From Fidelibacterota bacterium (lineage in GTDB: Bacteria; Pseudomonadota; Alphaproteobacteria; Rhodospirillales; Rhodospirillaceae): a stretch of DNA of 64,000 bases. The stretch is from contig CANJPQ010000008.1 in the NCBI GenBank assembly GCA_947476275.1, positions 62,001-126,000 of the forward strand. Reading direction: 5' to 3'. Position numbers and translations under genes: made by a program. Below, piece after piece: positions 2 through 12,139 of the stretch; position 1 is the first letter of the stretch, and each line of letters starts with the position of its first letter. Under the pieces are notes generated by a model, which saw only the letters and a program-made list of their open reading frames with translations, ran no database searches and was not told the DNA's origin.

Positions 2-823
2 TTTAATCCGACGGTGGTCACCGATCCGCCGATGCGGATCGTCGAAGGCAAGTATTCCTATGGCGTCAACCTCGACGGCACCACGGATGGACAGGCCACG
101 CCCAAAACCTGCCAGCACGAGAAGTTCACCCATCCCGACGGCACGCCCGGCATCGACAACCAGATGTATCGCCTAGTCGGTTGCGTCTATGGCTGGCGCA
201 AAGGCGGGCTGCCCGAACTCAACGCCCATGAAGGGCGGCGCACCAGCGGCCTCGGCATGACGTTAATTGAAATCACCGGTGTCGATGACGCGCGCAACGA
301 CGACGACGTCACCATCACATTCTATCGGTCGGTCGATCAGTTCGCCCTCGATGGCGCGGGCAAGCCGCTCTCGTTCTCGAGCTACAACATCGACACCGAG
401 CAAGACGGCAAGCCGCGTTATGGTGACAGCCTCAAGGGCAAGATCAACGACGGCGTTGTCACCACCGCGCGGGGCGATGTGCGCCTGCCGTTCTATGGCA
501 ATTACAACTTCATGCACCCGGCCATCAAAGATATGGCGCTTAAGCTTGAGATCGCGGCCGACGGTACGTCTGCCAAGGGCCAAGTCACCGGCTACTATGA
601 CGCCGATGAGTTCATCTACTACGTCCAAGGCATGACGGGCCATTCGTCCACAGCGGACGACTGCCCCGCGATGTATGTTGCCGCTCACGAATTGGCAGAC
701 GGATATCCCGATCCCAAGACCGGTGCGTGCACCCACCTTTCGTCGTCGTTCGATGTCACCGCCTACGCCGCCTTCGTGATCCATCCGAAGCAGGAACGGC
801 TGACCGCAGGAGCAAAGCCGTGA
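2..823 (+). CDS. Hypothetical protein, 5' end outside window
   Basis: The frame is open from the first bases, so the gene most likely begins upstream; a GTG at 14 is the first possible start inside the window. About 270 residues are visible. They are rich in Asp, Gly and Tyr, with scattered Cys and no membrane span, which suits an exported beta-rich protein, though the signal peptide would lie outside. I do not recognise the family. Its stop codon overlaps the ATG of the next gene (TGATG), so it is translationally coupled to the DUF1592-group lipoprotein and probably belongs to the same secreted system. Confidence 0.75.
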   Translation, partial: FNPTVVTDPPMRIVEGKYSYGVNLDGTTDGQATPKTCQHEKFTHPDGTPGIDNQMYRLVGCVYGWRKGGLPELNAHEGRRTSGLGMTLIEITGVDDARNDDDVTITFYRSVDQFALDGAGKPLSFSSYNIDTEQDGKPRYGDSLKGKINDGVVTTARGDVRLPFYGNYNFMHPAIKDMALKLEIAADGTSAKGQVTGYYDADEFIYYVQGMTGHSSTADDCPAMYVAAHELADGYPDPKTGACTHLSSSFDVTAYAAFVIHPKQERLTAGAKP

Positions 824-2490
824 TGCGTCGCTGGATTTTCGCCGGTTTCGGCCTTGCTGCCCTCTCGCTGCTGAGCGGATGCGGACCGTCGGAGCCTGTC
901 GCCAAGGGCGCAGCCCCGACCATGCGCCGCTTGAGCAATGACCAGTATCGCAACGTCATTGCGGACGTGTTCGGCGCACACATTGTGGTCTCGGGCCAGG
1001 CAGACGCCCTGACCCGCACCGACGGTCTGTTAGCCGACGGCGCCCGGCTAGCCCGCATCACGCCGTCCGGCGGCGAAAAGTTCTACGGGCTGGCCAAGTC
1101 GATCTCCGCCCAGGTCGTGGCGCCGGAGAACCGCGAGGGTAATTTTACCTGCGCGCCGGCGGACGTGAAAGCGGCTGACGATGCGTGCGCGAAGCAATTC
1201 TTCACGCGCGTGGGCCGACTGCTCTATCGCCGCCCGCTCATTCAGTCGGAACTCGATCTGGCGGTGGAGACATCGCGCGAAGGTGCGAAGACCTACAGCG
1301 ATTTCTATCGCGGTGTCGCGTCGGGCTTGGTCGGCATGCTGACCACGCCGCAGTTCCTCTACATCGTCGATGAAACCGAGGCCGATCCGAAGAAGACGGG
1401 CCAGCAGCGTTTGACCTCATACGCCAAGGCGGCGCGCTTGAGCTTCCTGTTGTGGAATACGGCGCCGAACGAAGTCCTGCTCGATGCGGCGGCAAAGGGC
1501 GAACTCGAAAGCGACTCCGGCCTGCGCAAGCAGGTGGAACGGATGATGGCCTCGCCGCGGCTCGACGTGGGCGTGCGCGCGTTCTTCGAGGACTTCTTGC
1601 GTTTCGACCAGTTCGACACGCTCGAGAAGGACAGCGTGATCTATCCCGCCTTCACGCTGAAGGTAGTGGAAGATTCGCGCGAACAGGTGCTGCGCACCGT
1701 GCTCGATCACCTGATCGAGAACAACAAGGACTACCGCGAGATCTTCACCACCCGGAAAACTTTCGTTACGGGTCCTCTGGCACGCATCTATCACGTGCCG
1801 ACGGCGCGTCCGTCCGGCGGTTGGGAACCTTATGAGTTCGACGCGGACGATCCGCGCGCTGGCATCCTCACGCAGGTAGGCTTTGCCGCGCTCGCGTCGC
1901 ATCCGGGCCGCAGTTCGCCGACGCTTCGCGGCCGCGCGATCCGTGAAGCGATCCTGTGCCAGAAGGTGCCAGATCCGCCGGGTAATGTGGACTTCACCAA
2001 ATTCGAGGATCCCAAGTCCGAGATGAAGACCGCGCGCCAGCGTCTGCAAGCGCACCGCGAGCCGCCGGCTTGCGCCGGTTGTCATGCGATCACCGATCCG
2101 ATCGGACTGGCGCTGGAGAATCTCGATGGGCTCGGACAACTGCGCGAAACCGAGAACGGCGCGCCGATCGATCCGACCGGCGAACTCGACGGCGTGAAGT
2201 TCGCCGATGCGGCTGGTCTCGCCAAGGCGGTCAGCACCAACCCGGCGACGCCCGCTTGTGTGGTCGACCGCCTGGCGTCCTACGCGCTCGGCCGCAAGGC
2301 CGACGACAAAGAATACGTCCAGTACCTGCAGAAGGCCTTCGCCGAAGACGGCTACAAGTTCCCGGCGCTCTTGCGCCGTATTGCGATGAGCGATGCGTTC
2401 TATGCCGTGATACCGCCGGCCGCGAAGAAAGAGTCTGTCGCGACCGCCGACACCGAACATCCCGCGCTGCCTTTGGAGGCCAAGCCATGA
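823..2490 (+). CDS. DUF1592/DUF1588/DUF1585-type lipoprotein with CxxCH motif
   Basis: The 555-residue protein starts at the ATG overlapping the previous stop. It has a lipoprotein signal with lipobox LSGC (Cys20), so it should be membrane-anchored outside the cytoplasm. A RRLSNDQYRNVI stretch near residue 35 matches the DUF1587 opening. It is followed by DUF1595/DUF1592-like sequence (YRRPL, TPQFLYIV, LSFLLWNTAPNE), DUF1588 (ASHPGRSSPTLRGRAI), and a CAGCH at residues 417-421 leading into DUF1585. Such proteins are known mainly from planctomycetes and some proteobacteria and pair with DUF1552 proteins, as here. CAGCH could bind heme c, giving an electron-transfer role, but this is unproven. 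Its 3' end overlaps the DUF1552 gene by four bases. Confidence 0.88.
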   Translation: MRRWIFAGFGLAALSLLSGCGPSEPVAKGAAPTMRRLSNDQYRNVIADVFGAHIVVSGQADALTRTDGLLADGARLARITPSGGEKFYGLAKSISAQVVAPENREGNFTCAPADVKAADDACAKQFFTRVGRLLYRRPLIQSELDLAVETSREGAKTYSDFYRGVASGLVGMLTTPQFLYIVDETEADPKKTGQQRLTSYAKAARLSFLLWNTAPNEVLLDAAAKGELESDSGLRKQVERMMASPRLDVGVRAFFEDFLRFDQFDTLEKDSVIYPAFTLKVVEDSREQVLRTVLDHLIENNKDYREIFTTRKTFVTGPLARIYHVPTARPSGGWEPYEFDADDPRAGILTQVGFAALASHPGRSSPTLRGRAIREAILCQKVPDPPGNVDFTKFEDPKSEMKTARQRLQAHREPPACAGCHAITDPIGLALENLDGLGQLRETENGAPIDPTGELDGVKFADAAGLAKAVSTNPATPACVVDRLASYALGRKADDKEYVQYLQKAFAEDGYKFPALLRRIAMSDAFYAVIPPAAKKESVATADTEHPALPLEAKP

Positions 2491-3860
2491 GCATCCTGAT
2501 CCGCAAGCCGGTGCCGCGCCGCGCGGCGCTGCGCGGCATTTTCAACGGTGCGGCGGTCAGCCTGGCGCTGCCGTTTCTCGACCGCTTCCTCGACGATAAC
2601 GGCACCGCGCTCGCCGCCACCGGGCAGGCGTTGCCGGTGCGTTTCGGCACCTGGTACTGGGGCATGGGACATACGCCCGGTCATGCCATCGCCGACAAAC
2701 CGCAGACAGCACCCGGTATCGGGTTCATGGAAGAAACGAAGGCGCTTCGGCCTTACGAGAAGGAGATCAGTTACTTCGGCGGTTTCGGCATGCCGCTCGA
2801 CGGGCGCTCGAACTACACGCACTTTACCGGTTGGGTGGGCACGCGCACCGGCGTGGTGCCGCAGAAGGAAGGCGATATCCCGGCGCCGACGTTGGATCTC
2901 CTGATCGCAGATGAGATCGGCACGACCACGCGCTTCAAGACCATCGACGCATCGTCCGTCGGCATCGCGCGTGAGAATTACAGCGCGCGCAGTTCCGAAA
3001 GTCGCGCTCAGGCGGAAATTTCACCGGTCGGTCTCTACGCGCGCCTGTTCGGTCCTGGGTTCACCGATCCGAACACTGGCGATTTCAAGCCTGATCCGCG
3101 GATCATGCTCGAGAAGAGCGTGCTGTCGGCCTACACCGAGAACTCAAAGGCCTACATCAAGAACCTTGGCGCGGCCGATCGCGAGCGCATGGACGAGTAC
3201 TTCACTTCCTTGCGCCAGATCGAGAACCAGATGGCCAACGCCCTGCAGAAGCCGGAGCCGAACGCGGCGTGCAAAGTGCCGCAATCGCCGTCGGAGCCGC
3301 CGGCGGACCGTCTCGCCGGTGCGCGCGAGATGCCCAACGTGATCGATAATCACGCGGTGATGGCGAAGATGCTGGCGATGGCCGTGGCCTGCGACCAAAC
3401 CCGTGTGTTCAATATGGTGTTCACCGACAACTTCGCCAACGTGCGCAAGAAGGGCGAGACCTACACTCACCATCTGCTGACGCACTCGGAACTTATTGAC
3501 CCGAACCTCGGCTATCAGCCCCTGGCGTTCTGGTTCAATCAGCGCTGCAGCGAGGGCCTGGCGACCTATATCGAGACCTTGCAAGGCATCAAGGAAGGCG
3601 CGGGCACGCTGCTCGACAACTGCCTGGTGTTCGCGACAACCGAAACCGCCTTTGCCAAGCTGCACACGATCGACGGCATTCCGCTCTATTTCGTCGGCAA
3701 GGCCGGCGGGCGCGTGAAGACCGGCCTGCATGTCGTCGGCGGCGGCGATCCCATCAGCCGCGTCGGATTGACGGCCATGAAGATCATGGGCGTCGGGGCG
3801 CGGAGCTGGGGCGCGAAGTCCCTACAGACGTCCAAACCCGTCACCGACGTGCTGGCCTAG
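2487..3860 (+). CDS. DUF1552 family exported protein
   Basis: The 457-residue protein starts at the ATG that overlaps the upstream stop (ATGA). The N-terminus carries PRRAALRG followed by a hydrophobic stretch (VSLALPFL), a Tat-like exported start. Family hallmarks include FGTWYWGMG near the start, SYFGGF, and a central region ending FNMVFTDNFANVRKKGE. DUF1552 proteins have no established activity; they are regularly encoded next to DUF1592-group proteins, and the four-base overlap here implies joint synthesis. Inference: the two form an envelope redox or hydrolytic pair. The next gene follows after three bases. Confidence 0.88.
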   Translation: MSILIRKPVPRRAALRGIFNGAAVSLALPFLDRFLDDNGTALAATGQALPVRFGTWYWGMGHTPGHAIADKPQTAPGIGFMEETKALRPYEKEISYFGGFGMPLDGRSNYTHFTGWVGTRTGVVPQKEGDIPAPTLDLLIADEIGTTTRFKTIDASSVGIARENYSARSSESRAQAEISPVGLYARLFGPGFTDPNTGDFKPDPRIMLEKSVLSAYTENSKAYIKNLGAADRERMDEYFTSLRQIENQMANALQKPEPNAACKVPQSPSEPPADRLAGAREMPNVIDNHAVMAKMLAMAVACDQTRVFNMVFTDNFANVRKKGETYTHHLLTHSELIDPNLGYQPLAFWFNQRCSEGLATYIETLQGIKEGAGTLLDNCLVFATTETAFAKLHTIDGIPLYFVGKAGGRVKTGLHVVGGGDPISRVGLTAMKIMGVGARSWGAKSLQTSKPVTDVLA

Positions 3861-3863
3861 CTC

Positions 3864-4949
3864 ATGCGCGCGCTCGTCCTGTCCGTGGCTCTGATGCTGA
3901 GTGCGGTCAGCGCGCGCGCGGAAGATCCCACTGTGCCGCCCGAAGTCACCTTGAACCGGCAAGGTCACGGGTGGATCCTCGCGGACGCCAAGGGTAAGAC
4001 GCTTTACGTCACGCTGGCGGACAAGAACGGTAACCCAAGCTGCGAGGGTGCGTGCGCCAAGCAATGGCCACCGGTGATCGCGCCGCCGGGCGCGAGGCCA
4101 TTCGGCGAATGGAGCCTCGCCGCCCGCGCAGACGGCACGAACCAGTGGGCCTTCAACGGCAAACCCCTCTATGCCTACAGCGCGGATGCCGCGCCGGGCG
4201 ACCAGAACGGCGACGACATGGAGCAGCAATGGTCGGTGGCGTTGAAGCCGTTGCAGACGCCGCCGGGCTTTGGCCTTCTGCGCGGACCGCGTGGCCAGCT
4301 GCTGGTCGATCGGCAGCGCATGTCGCTCTACACGTTTGCCGCCGATACCGCGAAAAGCAGCGCCTGCACCGGCGCCTGTGCGCGGCAGTGGAAGCCGGTC
4401 GAAGCCTGGTGGTTGGCGGAGCTGCGTGTGCCGGATTGGTCCGTGGTCGATCGTCCGGACGGCAACCGCCAATGGACTTACAAGTGCAAGCCACTCTATC
4501 GCTATGCTGGCGACGTTAATCCGGGCGACCTACTCGGCGCGAACATCAAGGACTGGCAGCCCGTGGTATTGGAGCCGGCGCCGCCGGTGCCGTCATGGCT
4601 TACCGTTCAGCGATCCGACGGCGGCGAACTTTATGCCGATGCAAACGGAAGGACGGTCTATTTCCACATGGTAAGCGGGCGACCCCAGGCGGGCGTCGGT
4701 TTTGTGCGTCTCAATGAGACGCCGGAGAACTGGAAGCCGTGCCTTGCGTCCGATACCGACAAGCCGGTTGGCTTCTTCTCCATCGTCACCACTGAGAACG
4801 GTCAACGTCAGTGGGCCTACAAGGGCAATCCGATGTTCACCAACGTCTACGACAATGCTCCGGGGGAGATTCACGGCGTACGCAGCATCGACCGGCTTTG
4901 GCGCCCGATCATGACCAATGGCCAGAGCATGCCGGGTACGGGGAGCTAA
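3864..4949 (+). CDS. Exported COG4315-like protein with three repeats
   Basis: The 361-residue protein has a Sec signal peptide ending near ARAED. Three copies of a roughly 105-residue module follow (about 30-130, 135-235 and 240-350). Each has a G-[KR]-x-[LV]-Y core (KTLYVT, MSLYTF, RTVYFH), then W-x-P-V, then a second W-x-[FY]-x-x-[KG]-P-[LM] strand (QWAFNGKPLYAY, QWTYKCKPLYRY, QWAYKGNPMFTN). The first two carry paired cysteines (CEGACAKQW, CTGACARQW); the third has degenerated there. This is the PF03640/COG4315 'secreted repeat' pattern, of unknown function. Three modules in tandem is longer than the usual one or two. Confidence 0.8.
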   Translation: MRALVLSVALMLSAVSARAEDPTVPPEVTLNRQGHGWILADAKGKTLYVTLADKNGNPSCEGACAKQWPPVIAPPGARPFGEWSLAARADGTNQWAFNGKPLYAYSADAAPGDQNGDDMEQQWSVALKPLQTPPGFGLLRGPRGQLLVDRQRMSLYTFAADTAKSSACTGACARQWKPVEAWWLAELRVPDWSVVDRPDGNRQWTYKCKPLYRYAGDVNPGDLLGANIKDWQPVVLEPAPPVPSWLTVQRSDGGELYADANGRTVYFHMVSGRPQAGVGFVRLNETPENWKPCLASDTDKPVGFFSIVTTENGQRQWAYKGNPMFTNVYDNAPGEIHGVRSIDRLWRPIMTNGQSMPGTGS

Positions 4950-5014
4950 AAACCGCGGCCGCGGGGACATTCGGCCGGCGCTACAAACGAATTCAGCGAA
5001 CAAGGGGAACTCCG

Positions 5015-5404
5015 ATGTTCTTGCCGCACATTACCGTCGATGCGACGGGCCATTCCGTATTGAACGAAGTCGATCTGAAGATGACCGGTCCTGGTGGCGC
5101 TGCCGCCGGCGGCGACGTCTATTTCCAGCGCATCCAGGCTGCTCAGCAGCCGGTGATCGACTGGCGCATCGGACACGCGCTGCCCGGCCACTTCGTCGAC
5201 TTCACGCCGTCGGACGCCAACACGTTCATCGCGGTGTTCTCGGGGCAGATGAACGTCATCGTCAGCAACGGCGAGGAGCGTCAGCTTGCCCGCGGCGATA
5301 TGATGCTCATGCAGGACATCGGCGGGCAGGGACACATGACCCGTTTCCTCGGGCAAGAGGCTTGCAACTATCTGATGATTACCATGCCGGGCGGATTCAA
5401 GTAG
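5015..5404 (+). CDS. Small cupin-domain protein
   Basis: The 129-residue protein has its ATG preceded by AAGGGGAA at good spacing. The alternative upstream reading would run back through the 3' end of the preceding gene in another frame and is rejected. The single domain has cupin features: a turn with HALPGHFVDF, an FIAVFSGQMNVIV strand pair, and the second-motif region RGDMMLMQDIGGQGHMTRF. There is no signal peptide. It is part of a + strand run with short gaps, next to CHRD and other cupin genes. The substrate is unknown; it could be a sensor or a metal-dependent enzyme. Confidence 0.8.
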   Translation: MFLPHITVDATGHSVLNEVDLKMTGPGGAAAGGDVYFQRIQAAQQPVIDWRIGHALPGHFVDFTPSDANTFIAVFSGQMNVIVSNGEERQLARGDMMLMQDIGGQGHMTRFLGQEACNYLMITMPGGFK

Positions 5405-5414
5405 GACAGTGCCG

Positions 5415-5927
5415 GTGCGTATTCCCCTCATCCTCGCACTTGCAGCAGCGATTGCGCTGCCTGCTGTGGCTGCGCCCGATCCGCGTCGTCCAAAGGTCGA
5501 CATGTCCTGCGCCTATTTCGCCGCCAACCCGGACGACGACAACGGTCCGCCGATCACCTTCTTCGCCGATCTTTCCCCCGAAGAGGAGAGCTGGGTCGCC
5601 GCAAGTTCAGGCAAGGGTCGTGTCGAATTCACGCTCAATCGTAAAACGCTTGAACTGACCTGGAAGGCGACGTACGGCAATCTCACGTCGCCGGCGAAGT
5701 CCTTTGCGATCCACGGACCGCAGACGCCCGGCGGCGAAGCGGCCGCTTTGTTCGACCTCGCGCCCAAGGGCGTAAAGAGCCCGATGGAAGGCACGTTGAC
5801 CCTCAATCCCGGGACACTGGCGTATCTCGTCCAGGACAGGATGTACGTCCAACTCTCGACCGCGAAGTACCCGCTGGGTGAACTGCGCGCGACGATCCAG
5901 AAAAATCGCCCCAAGTGCTCGAAATAG
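5415..5927 (+). CDS. Exported CHRD-domain protein
   Basis: I chose the GTG at 5415 over the GTG at 5409 because AGGA at 5403-5406 sits eight bases from the former and only two from the latter. The 170-residue product starts with a clear signal peptide (IPLILALAAAIALPAVAA). The rest resembles the CHRD (chordin) fold: GKGRVEFTLNRKTLELTW, IHGPQTPGGEAA, then a C-terminal YVQLSTAKYPLGELRATI strand typical of these small secreted domains. Two Cys residues lie at the ends. CHRD proteins have no defined bacterial function; this one sits among secreted and cupin genes. Confidence 0.82.
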   Translation: MRIPLILALAAAIALPAVAAPDPRRPKVDMSCAYFAANPDDDNGPPITFFADLSPEEESWVAASSGKGRVEFTLNRKTLELTWKATYGNLTSPAKSFAIHGPQTPGGEAAALFDLAPKGVKSPMEGTLTLNPGTLAYLVQDRMYVQLSTAKYPLGELRATIQKNRPKCSK

Positions 5928-5936
5928 GAGCTGACA

Positions 5937-6350
5937 ATGGCAGACCTCCAACTCGCAACGGCCTATCGCATTCCCGGCTACAAGCTCGATCAGAACGGCC
6001 GGTCAACCTGGACGTATTATGATGTGCCGCTGATCGCGCAAGGCCCGACCAGCGCGATGAGCAATCGCCAGGTCGGCATGTCGTGGGGGCTTGGCTTCAG
6101 CCAGAACAGCCCCAAGCCCTACAACATGAACGAGATGCACAAGACCAACCAGATGGGCATCGTTTGGGTGATGTCGGGACATCTGGAAACGACCATTCAG
6201 GTCGGCGAGATGCGCCGCCGTTGCCCGGGCGAGGGCAACTTCGTGCATGGCCATTGCCTGCATCATTCCACCATGCGCTCGATCGTTCCGACGACGACCT
6301 TGAGTCTGAACCTCACCGAAAAGGTCACGCCGACCTATACGTTCAAGTAG
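5937..6350 (+). CDS. Cupin-like small protein
   Basis: The 137-residue protein has AGGAG seven bases before its ATG and follows the CHRD gene by nine bases. It has no signal peptide. A central G-[HI]-x-W-V-M-S-G-H-L strand and HGHCLHHS resemble a cupin core with several His residues that could bind a metal. Similarity to the cupin at 5015 is in fold pattern rather than in residues. Function unknown; probably works with the other cupins of this run. Confidence 0.72.
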   Translation: MADLQLATAYRIPGYKLDQNGRSTWTYYDVPLIAQGPTSAMSNRQVGMSWGLGFSQNSPKPYNMNEMHKTNQMGIVWVMSGHLETTIQVGEMRRRCPGEGNFVHGHCLHHSTMRSIVPTTTLSLNLTEKVTPTYTFK

Positions 6351-6361
6351 GGGAATCGATC

Positions 6362-7291
6362 ATGCGCACGCTTGCCGTCACGGCCTTTGCCGCAACGATC
6401 GCTTTCGGTGGCGCGGCTCTTGCCGATCCGCCGAACCATGCTTTTCGCAACGGCTCGGCCTGGAGTCCGTCGCCGGAATTTCATATTTCCGGCGCGAGCG
6501 TGCTGGTGGAGCAGTTCGCCGAGTGGGATTCCAAGGCCCGCGAAGGCGCGACCGTTCTGATCAACTGGGGTAAGGACACGGCCAAGGCGCCGAAGGAAGC
6601 GGTGAAGTACGAGCAAAAGACTTTCGCGTTTCCAACCGGCACGATCCGCGTCCTCGACTTCAAGAAGGCGAACGGCGGCGTGCTACATATGATCACCATG
6701 GAAAACGAGATCTTCGTGTTGAAGGGCACGGTGACCGTTGATGTGGCGGGGCAGAACGTCACCTTAAATGCCGGCGATGCGGCTTATTATCCGAGCGGTG
6801 TGATGCGCGGCAAAGGCGATGCCACCATTCTCTCCTGGAACGTGACCGGCACGGTGCCGGCGACCGCAGCCAAGGGGCAGGTGGTCCGCGCCAAGGAAGC
6901 GCCGACGTCCATGTCCGCCGAATGGGATGGGCCGGACGGCAAGCGGGTGAGGGCCAACAAGCCCGAAGAACTGAAGAAGATGCCGAAGAACGCGATCAAG
7001 CTGGCGGTCACGCGCTATACCTTCGACGGCAATTCGGTCCGCGTCGCGAAGAACTACAAGGGCGGCCCCACCAGCCCGGCAAGCGGCGGCCTTGATGCTC
7101 TGATCTACGTCACCTCGGGCAAGCTCAAGTTCTTCCAGGACGGCAAGGAAGCGGACGTCGTACCAGGCGATGCGATACGCGAGATCGCCGGCGCGCGGCA
7201 CTATTGGAACCGGCTGGAGGATTCCTCCTTCGTCGCGACCAGCAGTTTGCCCATTGCGGGCGCGAAACCTGGACCGGCGACCGACCGGTAA
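6362..7291 (+). CDS. Exported two-domain cupin protein
   Basis: The 309-residue protein begins at the ATG eleven bases after the preceding gene. A signal peptide (AVTAFAATIAFGGAALA) precedes two cupin modules. The first is at about 80-150 (MITMENEIFVLKGTVTVDV, NAGDAAYYPSGVMRG); the second at about 215-290 (ALIYVTSGKLKFFQDG, VPGDAIREIAGARHYW). Bicupins of this kind include dioxygenases, decarboxylases and binding proteins, and the export signal points to a periplasmic role. It closes the tightly spaced run before a gap of about 100 bases. Confidence 0.82.
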   Translation: MRTLAVTAFAATIAFGGAALADPPNHAFRNGSAWSPSPEFHISGASVLVEQFAEWDSKAREGATVLINWGKDTAKAPKEAVKYEQKTFAFPTGTIRVLDFKKANGGVLHMITMENEIFVLKGTVTVDVAGQNVTLNAGDAAYYPSGVMRGKGDATILSWNVTGTVPATAAKGQVVRAKEAPTSMSAEWDGPDGKRVRANKPEELKKMPKNAIKLAVTRYTFDGNSVRVAKNYKGGPTSPASGGLDALIYVTSGKLKFFQDGKEADVVPGDAIREIAGARHYWNRLEDSSFVATSSLPIAGAKPGPATDR

Positions 7292-7396
7292 CCGAGGACG
7301 TACACTCAATCTGTTTTTCGTTCTGGCTTAGCGCTTGAGCCCGATCCTGCGCGCTCTCATCCTATTGCCCTCAACTTTTTTTATGAGGGGGATGCT

Positions 7397-8584
7397 GTGC
7401 CGGGACCAACCAAGCTAAGCATAGGTTTCACTGCGCTTGCCGCCACGCTGCTCGCGGGCGGGATCGCGACAGCTCAAGTCACCACCGCCACGCCGCCGAG
7501 CACGACGCCGGTCAAGAGTGCCGCGAAGGGCGCGGCCGGAAGTCTCGAGCACTTCAAGATGGTGGGTGAGGGCCTGAAGGGAGGTAGCGCTTTTCCGGCC
7601 TACGAAGTGCCCAACCTGCCTGAGGCCGCGGAAGCTTACTACGCTCCGGATAGCGTCCACCTGATTGCGCAAACGCGCGATCCGGCCGCGCTGAAGACGC
7701 CCTTTGGCACCGCTGGCGCACTCACATACATCTTCGCCGATGACGGCAGCGACGTGTGGCGCGTGAACGATCACGGTCAGGACGGTTGCTCGTTCTTCTT
7801 CCCCAACGGCAAGCGCGTCGTCTGGACCTCGACCCGCGACAATTTGAACCTGCCGGTGGGCAACTGGTCGGCGCCGGAAGACTATCCGCAAGGGGCGGAT
7901 CTGTATGCCTCCGACCTCGACGGTAAGAACATCAAGCGTCTCACCAATACGCCTTACTATGAGGCGGAAGTTTCCGTCTCGCCCGACGGCAAGTGGATCG
8001 TGTTCGGCCGCCAGATCGACGGCAATATGGACCTGTGGGTGATGAAGTCCGACGGCACGGAGGAACGCCAAGTCACGCACACGCTCGACTGGCAGGAAGG
8101 TGCACCGTTCTTCATGCAGGACAACGAGCACATTATTTTTCGCGCCTGGCGCCGGACGGAGATCGGCAAGATCAAGCCGACGCCGATGACGGTGATGACG
8201 ATCAAGAAGGACGGCTCCGATTGGCGCCGGCACACCTACGACTCCGGCATGAACTGGCATCCGTTCCCGGCGCCGGATGGCCACCACTACACCTTCGTCA
8301 AGGCCGTCAGCGCCACAGACTGGCAGGCCTTCATCGGCGACCTTGCCGGCGGGGAGCCCAAGCAGCTGACCTTCGGCGGCAACTTCAACGGCATGGCCCA
8401 CATGTCGCCGAACGGGGAGAAGATGGTGTTCTCTCGCGGCACGGGTAAAGGCTTCATGCAAGGTATTCGGACCTTTGTGATGGCTATGCGCTCCATGAAC
8501 CTGGGTCCGAAGAATTACGTGAAGTGGAACCCGTCATGGGGCCAGCCGATGCAGCCCGATCCGGGCGATCCCAAGGCCAACTGA
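7397..8584 (+). CDS. Exported PD40/TolB-like beta-propeller protein
   Basis: The 395-residue protein starts at a GTG preceded by GAGGGGGA; the ATG at 7392 is out of frame and ends quickly. It has a signal peptide (FTALAATLLAGGIATA). WD40-like PD40 repeats follow: YASDLDGKNIKRLTNTPYYE with VSPDGKWIVF, LWVMKSDGTEERQVTHT with FMQDNEHIIF, and MTIKKDGSDWRRHT. This is the fold of TolB and of the non-catalytic part of prolyl-oligopeptidase-like proteins; no catalytic domain is present. It is followed by a strong terminator, so it probably ends the + strand transcription unit. Confidence 0.85.
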   Translation: MPGPTKLSIGFTALAATLLAGGIATAQVTTATPPSTTPVKSAAKGAAGSLEHFKMVGEGLKGGSAFPAYEVPNLPEAAEAYYAPDSVHLIAQTRDPAALKTPFGTAGALTYIFADDGSDVWRVNDHGQDGCSFFFPNGKRVVWTSTRDNLNLPVGNWSAPEDYPQGADLYASDLDGKNIKRLTNTPYYEAEVSVSPDGKWIVFGRQIDGNMDLWVMKSDGTEERQVTHTLDWQEGAPFFMQDNEHIIFRAWRRTEIGKIKPTPMTVMTIKKDGSDWRRHTYDSGMNWHPFPAPDGHHYTFVKAVSATDWQAFIGDLAGGEPKQLTFGGNFNGMAHMSPNGEKMVFSRGTGKGFMQGIRTFVMAMRSMNLGPKNYVKWNPSWGQPMQPDPGDPKAN

Positions 8585-8652: not shown

Positions 8653-9429
8653 ATGCGCAGCGCAGCCGAGAGCAAATCCCCCGTGATCTCGACGACCGAA
8701 TGGCGCGTCCGCCTGGAGTTGGCCGCGGCGCACCGCATTGCCAACATGCATGGCTACAACGAGGGCATCTTCAACCATTTCACGGTGAACGTGCCGGGCA
8801 AGCCGGGGCGCTTCTATGTGATCCCGTTCGGCATCCATTGGTCCGAAGCCAAAGCCAGTGCGATCCTCGAAGTCGACTTCGATGGCAACGTTGTCGCGGG
8901 TGAGGGCGAGTGCGAACGCTCGGCATTTTGCATCCACGCCCCGATCCACCGTCTCAATCCGGATGCGACCTGTGTGTTTCATACGCACATGCCCTTCGCG
9001 AGCGCCTTCACGCGCATCGAGAACGGCCGGCTTGAGCCGACGGGGCAGACCGAAGCGGGCATCGCCAGCATGTCGGCCTATGACGATACCTATACGGGTC
9101 TCGCCTTCGATCCCGCCGAAGGCGAGCGCCTCGCCGGCGCTTTGGGAGACAAGAAGATTCTGTTCATGGCGAACCACGGCGTTCTGGTGGTCGGCAAGTC
9201 CGTCGCGGAGACCTATGACCGCCTGTATTACCTTGAGCGCGCCTGCCAAGTGCAGATGTACGCCATGTGGACGGGGCGGCCGTTGAAGAAGATTCCGCAG
9301 GCCGTCGTCGAGCATACGCGCGATCAGTTCCGTGCCGCGCCAACGTACGGTTCGCGCCCGGCCTATGAGCATCATTTCGACGCGCTGATGCGCGTGATCG
9401 ACAAGACCGGAACGGACTACAAGACCTAG
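8653..9429 (+). CDS. Class II aldolase/adducin family protein
   Basis: The 258-residue protein has the family pattern: AAAHRIANMHGYNEGIFNHFTVNV, then FHTHMPFASAF with two metal-binding His residues, and FMANHGVLVVG with a third. Relatives are aldolases, epimerases and decarboxylases acting on small hydroxy or sugar-phosphate substrates; many are uncharacterised. The annotated ATG lies two bases after a terminator T-run and lacks a ribosome site. A GTG at 8683 (30 bases in, before ISTTEW) is a possible alternative start and would put a promoter near the terminator. The stop codon overlaps the convergent gene's stop in the shared CTAG at 9426-9429. Confidence 0.85.
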   Translation: MRSAAESKSPVISTTEWRVRLELAAAHRIANMHGYNEGIFNHFTVNVPGKPGRFYVIPFGIHWSEAKASAILEVDFDGNVVAGEGECERSAFCIHAPIHRLNPDATCVFHTHMPFASAFTRIENGRLEPTGQTEAGIASMSAYDDTYTGLAFDPAEGERLAGALGDKKILFMANHGVLVVGKSVAETYDRLYYLERACQVQMYAMWTGRPLKKIPQAVVEHTRDQFRAAPTYGSRPAYEHHFDALMRVIDKTGTDYKT

Positions 9430-10927: not shown

Positions 10928-12139
10928 TCAGGTGATCGCCGCCGAGCGGCGCACGCCCTCGAACATCGACGACTTCATGAGATGGGCCTTCATGCGCGCC
11001 CGGTCCGCGGTGATCGCTTTCATCTCGTCCATGATCTCGCGCCGGCGCTTCGGATCCTTCTCGTTCATCCGCGCTCGGGTCTTGTCGGACTGCAGCAGGA
11101 TTTCGTCATAGGCGATCGGCCGCCGCTTGCGGTCATAGAGATCAAGCTGCGCATCCGAGGCGCCTTGTTTGAGCATCGCGATCAGGCAATCGGCGAGACA
11201 GAAGGCGTCGTGCACGCCGCCATTCAGTCCCATGCCGCCGGACGGGCTGTTGATGTGGGCCGCGTCGCCGGCTACGACCATCCGGCTGTTGCGATAGGTG
11301 GGCACGATGCGCATGTGCACGGTGTAGGCGCGTTTCTCACGCACCTCGTACGGCTCGGGCTTGGCGACGATCTCCTGCAGCTTTTCTTCGATGGACGCCG
11401 GCGTGAGCTGATCCTCCAGCGGCATGTCGTCGCGCGGGAATATCCCGGTGCGCCACTGGCTCGGCACCCGCAGCAGCGAGAAATGCCCGCCGTTCTCGTG
11501 CCAGCAGTACGACACCACCGAGATTTCTTCCAAGTGTTCGTGGAACGGGAAGGGTGTTGTGGCGATGATGGTCGTGCCGGGATAGGTCTTGCCGGTGAGA
11601 CTGAGCCCCGCGGCCTTGCGCACCACGCTGCGCACGCCGTCGCAGCCGACAACATACTTCGCGCGGAACTGTTCGACGTTGCCGTTGTGCTCCGCGTCCA
11701 CGCTCACGCCGTTATCGGACTGCGTGACGCCGGCCACGCGATAGTCGAACTTGATCTGCACGTTTCGGCGCGTATGCGCTTGGGCCAACAGCAGCTTGGA
11801 AAGTTTCCACTGTTCGCACTGTAGCCGAAAAGGATAGCGGGTTTCGTCCGCTAGCACGGACATATCGAACACGGCGCGCTCGCCGCTCGGGTGCCAGCGC
11901 AGTTGCCATGTTGGGCAGACCATGCCCTGGTCGATAAGACTTTGGGTGAGGCCGAGACGCTCCAGCATTTCCAGCGTCGGCGGGTGAAACGTCGAGGCGC
12001 GCAGGTCCGTCGCCTGATCGGTTTCGGCTTCGAGCACGAGTGTGTCGATACCCGCTTCCCCCAGCAGGTTCGCGAGCGTCAACCCGACGGGCCCGGCGCC
12101 GACAATGATCACTTCGGCGGAATTGGGTAAAAGCGGCAT
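10928..12139 (-). CDS. FAD-dependent aromatic hydroxylase (class A)
   Basis: The 403-residue protein has the FAD Rossmann motif VGAGPVGLTLANLLGEAG near the start, an E-x-R-like segment (DLRASTFHPPT), a DG motif (GCDGVRSVVR) near residue 165, and the second FAD motif GDAAHINSPSGGMGLNGGVHDA near residue 290. These are hallmarks of class A flavoprotein monooxygenases (PheA/TfdB/MhpA type), which hydroxylate phenolic rings using NAD(P)H. It is a paralog of the protein at 16345-17550: both share LRASTFHPP and RLQCEQW. It lacks the C-terminal thioredoxin-like domain of phenol hydroxylases. The binding-protein gene follows after 14 bases. Confidence 0.88.
   Translation of the reverse strand: MPLLPNSAEVIIVGAGPVGLTLANLLGEAGIDTLVLEAETDQATDLRASTFHPPTLEMLERLGLTQSLIDQGMVCPTWQLRWHPSGERAVFDMSVLADETRYPFRLQCEQWKLSKLLLAQAHTRRNVQIKFDYRVAGVTQSDNGVSVDAEHNGNVEQFRAKYVVGCDGVRSVVRKAAGLSLTGKTYPGTTIIATTPFPFHEHLEEISVVSYCWHENGGHFSLLRVPSQWRTGIFPRDDMPLEDQLTPASIEEKLQEIVAKPEPYEVREKRAYTVHMRIVPTYRNSRMVVAGDAAHINSPSGGMGLNGGVHDAFCLADCLIAMLKQGASDAQLDLYDRKRRPIAYDEILLQSDKTRARMNEKDPKRRREIMDEMKAITADRARMKAHLMKSSMFEGVRRSAAIT

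Follow-up and report, generated by a model that had tools for sequence, protein, structure and literature searches.

The gene block at positions 2-8584 of the window, i.e., of the whole stretch of 64,000 nucleotides that was analyzed (G000:C8:62001-126000, from a source genome of 4.48 Mb), is one of 20 paralogous copies of a module in the same genome. The module comprises the genes for a protein here called G1, a DUF1592/DUF1588 lipoprotein, a DUF1552 protein, a COG4315 repeat protein and, usually, a CHRD-domain protein. These genes recur together, diverge together and are fused to one another in several combinations, and in sphingomonads they have cytochrome genes as companions. In our judgment it is a balanced bet that the module is an envelope unit that oxidizes hydrophobic, probably plant-derived compounds and sends the electrons out via COG4315 and/or cytochrome c'.

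Gene organization of the block

An earlier note on this DNA, made from the letters alone, had described eight genes lying head to tail, several with overlapping stop and start codons, and a ninth gene behind a gap. The open reading frames agree: the gap has 105 bases, and the frames for the DUF1592 and DUF1552 proteins overlap by 4 bases. The DUF1592, DUF1552, triple-repeat COG4315 and CHRD identities given there all have Pfam matches over cut-off. The features of the block are as follows.

2-823, forward strand: G1, of which the C-terminal 273 amino acids lie in the window; no Pfam or NCBIfam match, beta-barrel in the predicted model, conserved cysteines
823-2490, forward strand: DUF1592/DUF1588 (PSCyt3) lipoprotein of 555 amino acids (Pfam); one CAGCH, mostly helical in the predicted model
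2071-2085, forward strand: CAGCH haem-c motif, residues 417-421 of the DUF1592 protein (alignments)
2487-3860, forward strand: DUF1552 (HXXSHH) protein (Pfam); N-terminus of the twin-arginine translocation (Tat) type by eye
3864-4949, forward strand: COG4315/Lipoprotein_15 repeat protein (Pfam); three repeats with paired cysteines
5015-5404, forward strand: small cupin of type cup8, accessory; signal peptide not seen
5409-5927, forward strand: CHRD-domain protein, the usual fifth member (Pfam); signal-peptide-like start
5937-6350, forward strand: small cupin-like protein of type cup9, accessory; signal peptide not seen
6362-7291, forward strand: bicupin, accessory (Pfam Cupin_2); signal-peptide-like start
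7397-8584, forward strand: PD40/TolB-like beta-propeller protein (Pfam), behind the 105-base gap

G1 is truncated at the window edge: by our own gene call the full frame is C8:61660-62823, which starts 341 bases upstream of the window and encodes 387 amino acids with a signal-peptide-like start. A second bicupin (C8:60071-61066) and a small cupin (C8:61079-61501) are encoded upstream of the window on the same strand as the operon, and thus the transcription unit may begin there. Seven of the nine products look exported, rather than the six counted before; the two small cupins do not (export was judged by eye or by a crude rule throughout). Twenty recurrences within one genome exclude a chance origin of the block, which is a real operon, and the PD40 protein probably lies outside the module, because it formed a singleton cluster among the neighbor genes.

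Twenty copies within one genome

Searches of the whole genome yielded 20 matches to DUF1588 and 20 to DUF1552, and these pair one to one by place. G1 and COG4315 are each found near all 20 pairs, and CHRD lies within 9.5 kb of 18, where it should be noted that the nearest CHRD may serve two modules (16 CHRD gene calls for 18 modules). Genome-wide, the matches to COG4315 repeats (98 in 25 frames) and to CHRD (18) are clustered at the DUF1588-DUF1552 pairs, and 16 of the 18 CHRD matches are within 10 kb of a module, compared with 1.3 expected. The gene order is also kept: G1 directly precedes DUF1592 on the same strand in 17 of the 20 copies, COG4315 directly follows DUF1552 in 19, and the 4-base overlap between DUF1592 and DUF1552 is present in 14. 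Cupins accompany only some of the copies.

The families of the module diverge together. Distance matrices were compared by Mantel tests for 19 of the 20 own modules, the remaining one being left out because of a short DUF1592 gene call, and all six pairs of core families agree, with Spearman coefficients of 0.51-0.90 and p 0.0005, which is the floor of 2000 permutations. CHRD follows the core families more loosely (Spearman 0.28 to 0.56, p 0.002 to 0.024). Since the modules are paralogues of one genome, the species tree does not cause this agreement; in 43 of 59 related modules, the coefficients are 0.65-0.82.

Conservation, fusions and co-occurrence in related genomes

A G1 profile scan with one genome per species, carried through for the best 80 of 122 relatives and thus biased to close relatives, gave 72 loci. 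Many of these end at contig ends, and gene starts in them come from our own codon-usage caller. By title, nearly all sources are metagenome-assembled genomes, most of them from Rhodospirillaceae or Alphaproteobacteria and four from Gammaproteobacteria or Steroidobacteraceae. DUF1592 is present in 62 of the 72 loci, COG4315 in 60, DUF1552 in 59 and CHRD in 53, so that COG4315, CHRD and cupin genes do stay with the pair in related genomes, and the refuting condition set in the earlier note, loss of these neighbors, was not observed. The view of cupins as core parts is not supported, with the bicupin in 22 loci and the two small cupins in 18 and 13. Two loci (L029 and L076) keep the gene order of the window, all three cupin genes included; as the full set is kept in a subset of loci only, the cupins belong to some of the modules as conserved accessories and are not a general part of the system.

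Five proteins are G1-COG4315 fusions, one in the own genome (C36:16579-18378) and four in relatives (L037, L039, L062, L094); four are CHRD-G1 fusions (L070, L077, L086, L096), and one locus (L041) encodes a bicupin-cup9 fusion. The five and the four may reflect few events. Outside the window, the region G000:C6:151227-153337 carries G1 directly before COG4315, with no DUF1588 or DUF1552 match nearby, and this half module matches the G1-COG4315 fusions in its composition.

In the family-wide set of 59 genomes, the 24 with G1 matches are also the 24 with DUF1588 matches, neither was found in the other 35, and the copy numbers of the two are correlated with rho 0.97. The 24 carriers fall in 7 of 23 genera and are therefore not independent. 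In the class-wide set of 152 genomes, three carry G1, and the same three carry DUF1588. Within one genus, the number of DUF1588 matches per genome is 0 in G025 (which is 97 percent complete), 22 in G002 and 20 in the genome of the window (G000), which fits an accessory trait that is quickly gained and lost.

It might be argued that the genes are neighbors by descent only, i.e., that an old operon underwent repeated duplication and that its products share no biochemical task. The copies do look derived from one ancestor, and thus the shared order is partly inherited. However, the order has been kept despite strong divergence (the COG4315 proteins of other copies are 31-44 percent identical to that of the window), there are two kinds of fusions, G1-COG4315 and CHRD-G1, and the co-occurrence of G1 and DUF1588 in the 59 genomes is exact, even if these are related and do not represent 59 independent tests. 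In addition, sphingomonads have other electron carriers, cytochrome c' and cytochrome b561, within the same operon. Mere descent is thus a most improbable explanation, and by co-divergence, fusions and co-occurrence, G1, DUF1592/DUF1588, DUF1552 and COG4315 behave as a unit.

Sequence and structure of the module proteins

The DUF1592 protein matches PSD4/DUF1592 (1e-31) and PSCyt3/DUF1588 (2.5e-28), and DUF1585 and DUF1595 are also over cut-off; DUF1587 is just under it (21.3 bits, cut-off 23). The earlier description as a CAGCH-bearing lipoprotein fits: a lipobox, LSGC, was recognized by eye at residues 17-20, and C417, G419, C420 and H421 of the CAGCH motif are invariant in 19 own copies and in the alignment of 59. 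This CxxCH site suggests that the protein binds c-type haem. The DUF1552 protein matches PF07586 with 117.6 bits (cut-off 30, E 1e-33), and H112, H328, H329, H333, E335 and H393 are invariant in the 20 own copies. The COG4315 protein matches PF03640 (Lipoprotein_15) over cut-off in 5 stretches (E 6e-55), and the CHRD protein matches PF07452 with 42.7 bits (cut-off 24.1, E 1e-10).

Concerning the three cupins of the earlier note, the bicupin is clear (Cupin_2 at 2e-14, over cut-off), whereas the two small proteins are not recognized on their own and only some relatives match. The protein at 5015 reaches Cupin_2 only at E 0.005, under cut-off, while six of seven members of its family match Cupin_3; the protein at 5937 has no Cupin_2 match in the window copy, and two of seven family members do. 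Among PDB sequences, cup8 has a weak match to cupin-type structures, e.g., TM1112 (E 0.0007), and the best value for cup9 is E 0.4. A bicupin-related protein with a C-terminal Cytochrome_CBB3 domain (E 9e-14) is encoded 4.5 kb from another module of the genome (L011:12112-12843, G000:C28:55112-55843).

G1 and the DUF1592 protein are the two proteins that were folded. G1 has invariant or near-invariant cysteines and is predicted to form a beta-barrel with a long N-terminal insert; the fold and the fold searches used the sequence of the relative L076 (predicted local distance difference test, pLDDT, 90). With VIA-align, small barrels compared best with the G1 model (Z 6.1, root-mean-square deviation 3.1 over 99 residues, an avidin/lipocalin-like comparison), and a phycobilisome linker compared best with the DUF1592 model (pLDDT 92; Z 5.2). 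Both Z values are in the range that the tool calls common arrangements, and a new fold is not claimed.

Cytochrome companions on sphingomonad plasmids

A collection of 72,556 plasmid records was searched, with chromosomes outside the search. G1 was matched in 13 records, 12 from Sphingobium and one from Novosphingobium, DUF1552 in 14 (the same numbers of the two genera and a weak match in Planctomyces) and DUF1592 in 16. The 13 records with G1, and no others, also have a gene for this cytochrome c', which in each of the 12 Sphingobium records lies some 110 bases behind DUF1552; a gene for cytochrome b561 adjoins it in the sphingomonad loci that were looked at. In S. herbicidovorans and in TomTYG64, the order is TonB receptor, an AraC-type or unnamed gene, G1, DUF1592, DUF1552, cytochrome c' and cytochrome b561, and inspection of four Sphingobium pair loci (L108, L109, L110, L114) revealed no COG4315. 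The plasmid of Novosphingobium RL4 has the order cytochrome c', COG4315, G1, DUF1592, DUF1552 and b561. Cytochrome c' and b561 are thus alternative or additional members beside COG4315 in sphingomonads, and the fact that they stand in its place or alongside it is, in our view, the strongest argument for COG4315 being part of an electron route. The earlier interpretation of an extracellular redox machine is therefore partly supported: its redox part gains from these cytochrome genes, its extracellular part does not.

The c-haem site, COG4315 and cytochrome c'/b561 all resemble electron-transfer components and would also be compatible with metal or electron handling at the cell surface, i.e., with extracellular electron transfer or metal reduction instead of substrate oxidation. 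However, the DUF1592 protein has a single CxxCH, and the module is without a multihaem protein or porin. Moreover, the nearby regulators are partly of the IclR type, which is common for catabolic genes; 5 of 24 IclR matches are within 10 kb of a module, compared with 1.8 expected (p 0.03), which is a mild enrichment. Metal or electron handling is accordingly rated as very unlikely, and oxidation of an organic substrate remains our preferred interpretation of the redox features.

Eleven of the 12 Sphingobium records carry TomTYG or TomMM names, which is the isolate naming of a study on tomatine degradation (PMC10653915). TomTYG65, TomTYG72, TomTYG74 and TomMM15 are named among the isolates in the available text of that study, and the assignment of the other seven is inferred from the name. 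According to the same text, all alpha-tomatine-degrading isolates of the study carry the catabolic genes, and S. herbicidovorans MH, the twelfth Sphingobium record, degrades tomatine incompletely (PMC10653915); DUF1592 and DUF1552 are not mentioned in its main text. The module is not a general feature of Sphingobium plasmids, because a TonB-receptor query had matches in 73 such records. A separate observation concerns the TonB receptor beside one Sphingobium module (L110:9700-12117), which is 58 percent identical to a receptor encoded on a plasmid (NZ_CP063446.1) of Novosphingobium sp. ES2-1, a strain that we take to be an oestrogen degrader.

Proposed function of the module

In the working model that we infer for the redox role, the direction of the electrons, the substrate class and the roles of G1, DUF1552 and CHRD, the predicted beta-barrel G1 would bind or present a hydrophobic substrate, which the Tat-type DUF1552 protein and the DUF1592 lipoprotein would oxidize. 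The electrons would exit through COG4315 and/or through cytochrome c' with cytochrome b561 to the respiratory chain, and the oxidized product would enter ordinary catabolism encoded next door, by hydrolases, flavin and pyrroloquinoline quinone (PQQ) dehydrogenases, coenzyme A (CoA) ligases and aldolases. The copies would probably serve different plant-derived or humic compounds.

Several observations weigh against this model. We know of no activity for DUF1592 or DUF1552, and bound haem is unobserved. Foldseek gave no match below E 0.001 for the G1 and DUF1592 models, and a search against PDB sequences gave no match at E 0.01 or better for the four core families (none at E 1 for G1 and DUF1552, E 0.5 for DUF1592 and at best E 0.025 for COG4315, all chance-like). 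G1 occurs without DUF1592 in 10 of the 72 loci, some of which are at contig ends and two of which are fusions. COG4315, cytochrome c' and b561 occur together in RL4, which speaks against a clean swap of COG4315 for the cytochromes; in the second copy of TomTYG72 (L109), COG4315 is missing and DUF1552 is followed by a gene for a VOC-fold protein with a signal-peptide-like start instead of a cytochrome gene, and the pair of TomTYG65 has no G1 beside it. Most of the tomatine-degrading strains belong to a single clade and come from a single study, and thus the link to tomatine may be one of descent. In the genome of the window, the best HsaA match has 271 bits, below the cut-off of 450. Of 51 TonB receptors, 12 lie within 12 kb of a module (p 0.0009) and 6 within 7 kb (p 0.06), which is a weak enrichment, and by a crude test the exported share among neighbors is only slightly raised (77 of 311 within 6 kb, compared with 12 of 76 beyond 8 kb and 8 of 44 in the rest of the window).

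DUF1592/DUF1588 and DUF1552 are widespread and often multiplied, and they now gain fixed partners (G1, COG4315, CHRD), fusions and cytochrome companions. Cultured Sphingobium strains have relatives of the module on plasmids, and for at least one of these strains a tomatine phenotype has been published, so that the function can be approached by deleting the genes and following growth. Should the copies be substrate-specific, the number of copies per genome would report which organic compounds a bacterium can attack.

Comparison with known systems

In the available text of PMC5615132, Verrucomicrobia PSCyt3/PSD genes are reported beside a conserved gene family of unknown function. The two systems share the c-haem domain family, a conserved unknown partner and many copies per genome; no G1, COG4315 or CHRD partners are described in the same text, in contrast to the fixed alphaproteobacterial module reported here. 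The earlier note had missed this description of PSCyt3 with a conserved unknown neighbor (PMC5615132), the role of G1 as a core member and the 20 copies. In the literature searched, which comprised open-licence PMC papers, we came across neither the module with its partners and accompanying cytochromes nor its link to saponin degraders, nor an assigned function for DUF1592/DUF1588 or DUF1552; queries that paired COG4315 with lipoprotein and cytochrome, or DUF1552 with steroid, found nothing in these papers. The domain names DUF1588/1587/1592/1595 appear in a table of an anaerobic P. putida design, as far as the available part of PMC7789669 shows.

Another two-gene pair with a Tat-type partner is DUF1501-DUF1800. 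It is loosely similar to DUF1592-DUF1552 and, according to the available text of PMC5122149, accompanies a bacterial chitin synthase, which raises the question of whether DUF1552 and DUF1592 modify cell-surface polymers as parts of an envelope-building or surface-structure system. The DUF1592 protein indeed has a weak match to DUF1800 (PF08811, E 0.0007) of 19.3 bits, where the cut-off of 26.1 is not reached, and the hhalign alignment of DUF1592 with DUF1800 has 65 aligned columns in about the same stretch. CHRD, in turn, occurs in extracellular proteins, chordin among them. On the other hand, hhalign gave probabilities of only 0.2 percent for DUF1552 with DUF1501 and 0.1 percent for DUF1592 with DUF1800, from shallow profiles of only 6 and 3 sequences, and the homology of the two pairs stays a suspicion. 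Furthermore, 20 copies here and 22 and none found in congeneric genomes fit a housekeeping role poorly, and the copies adjoin differing catabolic genes. We regard an envelope-building role as quite unlikely compared with the oxidation of hydrophobic compounds. The own genome has six DUF1501 genes (L101-L106), none within 12 kb of a module; three were checked, and a DUF1800 frame is beside each. Searches with DUF1501 and DUF1800 against PDB sequences gave chance-like matches or none.

The COG4315 protein of the window is related to the SCO0930-family lipoprotein (NF040526), with 180.9 bits and a best stretch of 199 residues, below the cut-off of 275; it has three repeats and is not that equivalog. 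The SusCD-like expansions of Bacteroidetes likewise place numerous paralogous envelope modules in one genome, with separate neighbors for each. The present module resembles them in the number of paralogues and in the possession of own neighbors, and differs in that TonB receptors are within 10 kb of only 7 of the 20 copies; a TonB receptor was dropped as a defining part because its enrichment is weak. p-Cresol methylhydroxylase and steroid C25 dehydrogenase are periplasmic oxidations that hand electrons to cytochrome c, and the electrons of an apolar substrate would likewise reach a c-type cytochrome in the proposed route, with the difference that no flavin or molybdenum domain was found by Pfam in the module's own proteins.

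Neighboring genes and possible substrates

Thirty hand-chosen proteins of 110 listed neighbors of the modules in the own genome were scanned with Pfam. They include a tannase/feruloyl esterase, Amidohydro_2, carbon-nitrogen hydrolases and an arylmalonate-decarboxylase-like protein (just under cut-off); three flavin adenine dinucleotide (FAD) dehydrogenases, a berberine-bridge-type (BBE) flavoprotein, PQQ dehydrogenases and molybdopterin enzymes; a luciferase-like monooxygenase, a CoA ligase and an acyl-CoA dehydrogenase; and also transporters, methyltransferases and unassigned proteins. As the catabolic neighbors differ between copies, the copies probably serve different compounds.

Polysaccharides or oligosaccharides have been proposed as substrates for the Verrucomicrobia PSCyt proteins, and the c-haem protein and DUF1552 could likewise act in carbohydrate oxidation. 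PSCyt genes are near sulfatases, and some have carbohydrate-binding modules (available text of PMC5615132); a Cellvibrio DUF1592 protein is tabulated under CBM2 (available part of PMC6004670), and glycosidase genes are near the Sphingobium copies. However, Pfam found no carbohydrate-binding domain in the ten proteins of the window and no glycoside hydrolase family among the 30 scanned neighbors, and the Sphingobium glycosidases could act on saponin sugars. Carbohydrate oxidation is thus unlikely.

In S. herbicidovorans, about 4 to 6 kb beyond DUF1552, there are HsaA-like (398 bits) and HsaC-like (269 bits) proteins, both under their cut-offs of 450, and a Rieske protein with the KshA C-terminal domain PF19298 (196.5 bits, cut-off 23.3). 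In TomTYG64, a different KshA_C Rieske protein (90.2 bits, same cut-off) is encoded at a distance of 8.6 kb, acyl-CoA dehydrogenases are nearby and an annotated 3-alpha-hydroxysteroid dehydrogenase is about 56 kb off; in TomTYG65, an annotated 7-alpha-hydroxysteroid dehydrogenase is about 10 kb from the pair. The KshA_C matches near two copies make it slightly likelier that the module represents a new class of envelope oxidases that depend on c-haem and act on polycyclic plant compounds, with about twenty substrate-specific copies in some Alphaproteobacteria and with COG4315 in a cytochrome c'/b561 electron route, a specific version of the proposal that we consider possible and rather doubtful. 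If true, it would be the first function for the 'planctomycete-specific' PSCyt3/DUF1552 proteins, and in Sphingobium the oxidase would perhaps help to attack steroidal sapogenins once the sugars have been removed. A steroid role of the window copy is unsupported: as HsaA of its own genome is under cut-off, steroids are a lead from relatives only, and three FAD proteins near other copies are below every 3-ketosteroid dehydrogenase cut-off.

Next to the block, the window encodes the following proteins.

8653-9429, forward strand: class II aldolase/adducin family enzyme (Pfam), a possible catabolic companion
downstream of the aldolase, reverse strand: binding protein, of the peptide-ABC (ATP-binding cassette) type by look
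10928-12139, reverse strand: FAD hydroxylase near the cluster, which resembles 3-(3-hydroxyphenyl)propionate hydroxylases, below all cut-offs

Proteins with a glyoxalase/dioxygenase-superfamily fold and signal-peptide-like starts recur near modules or lone G1 genes, at L023:13735-16145, at L043:11071-12045 (a pair judged by look only) and at L109:16168-16647.

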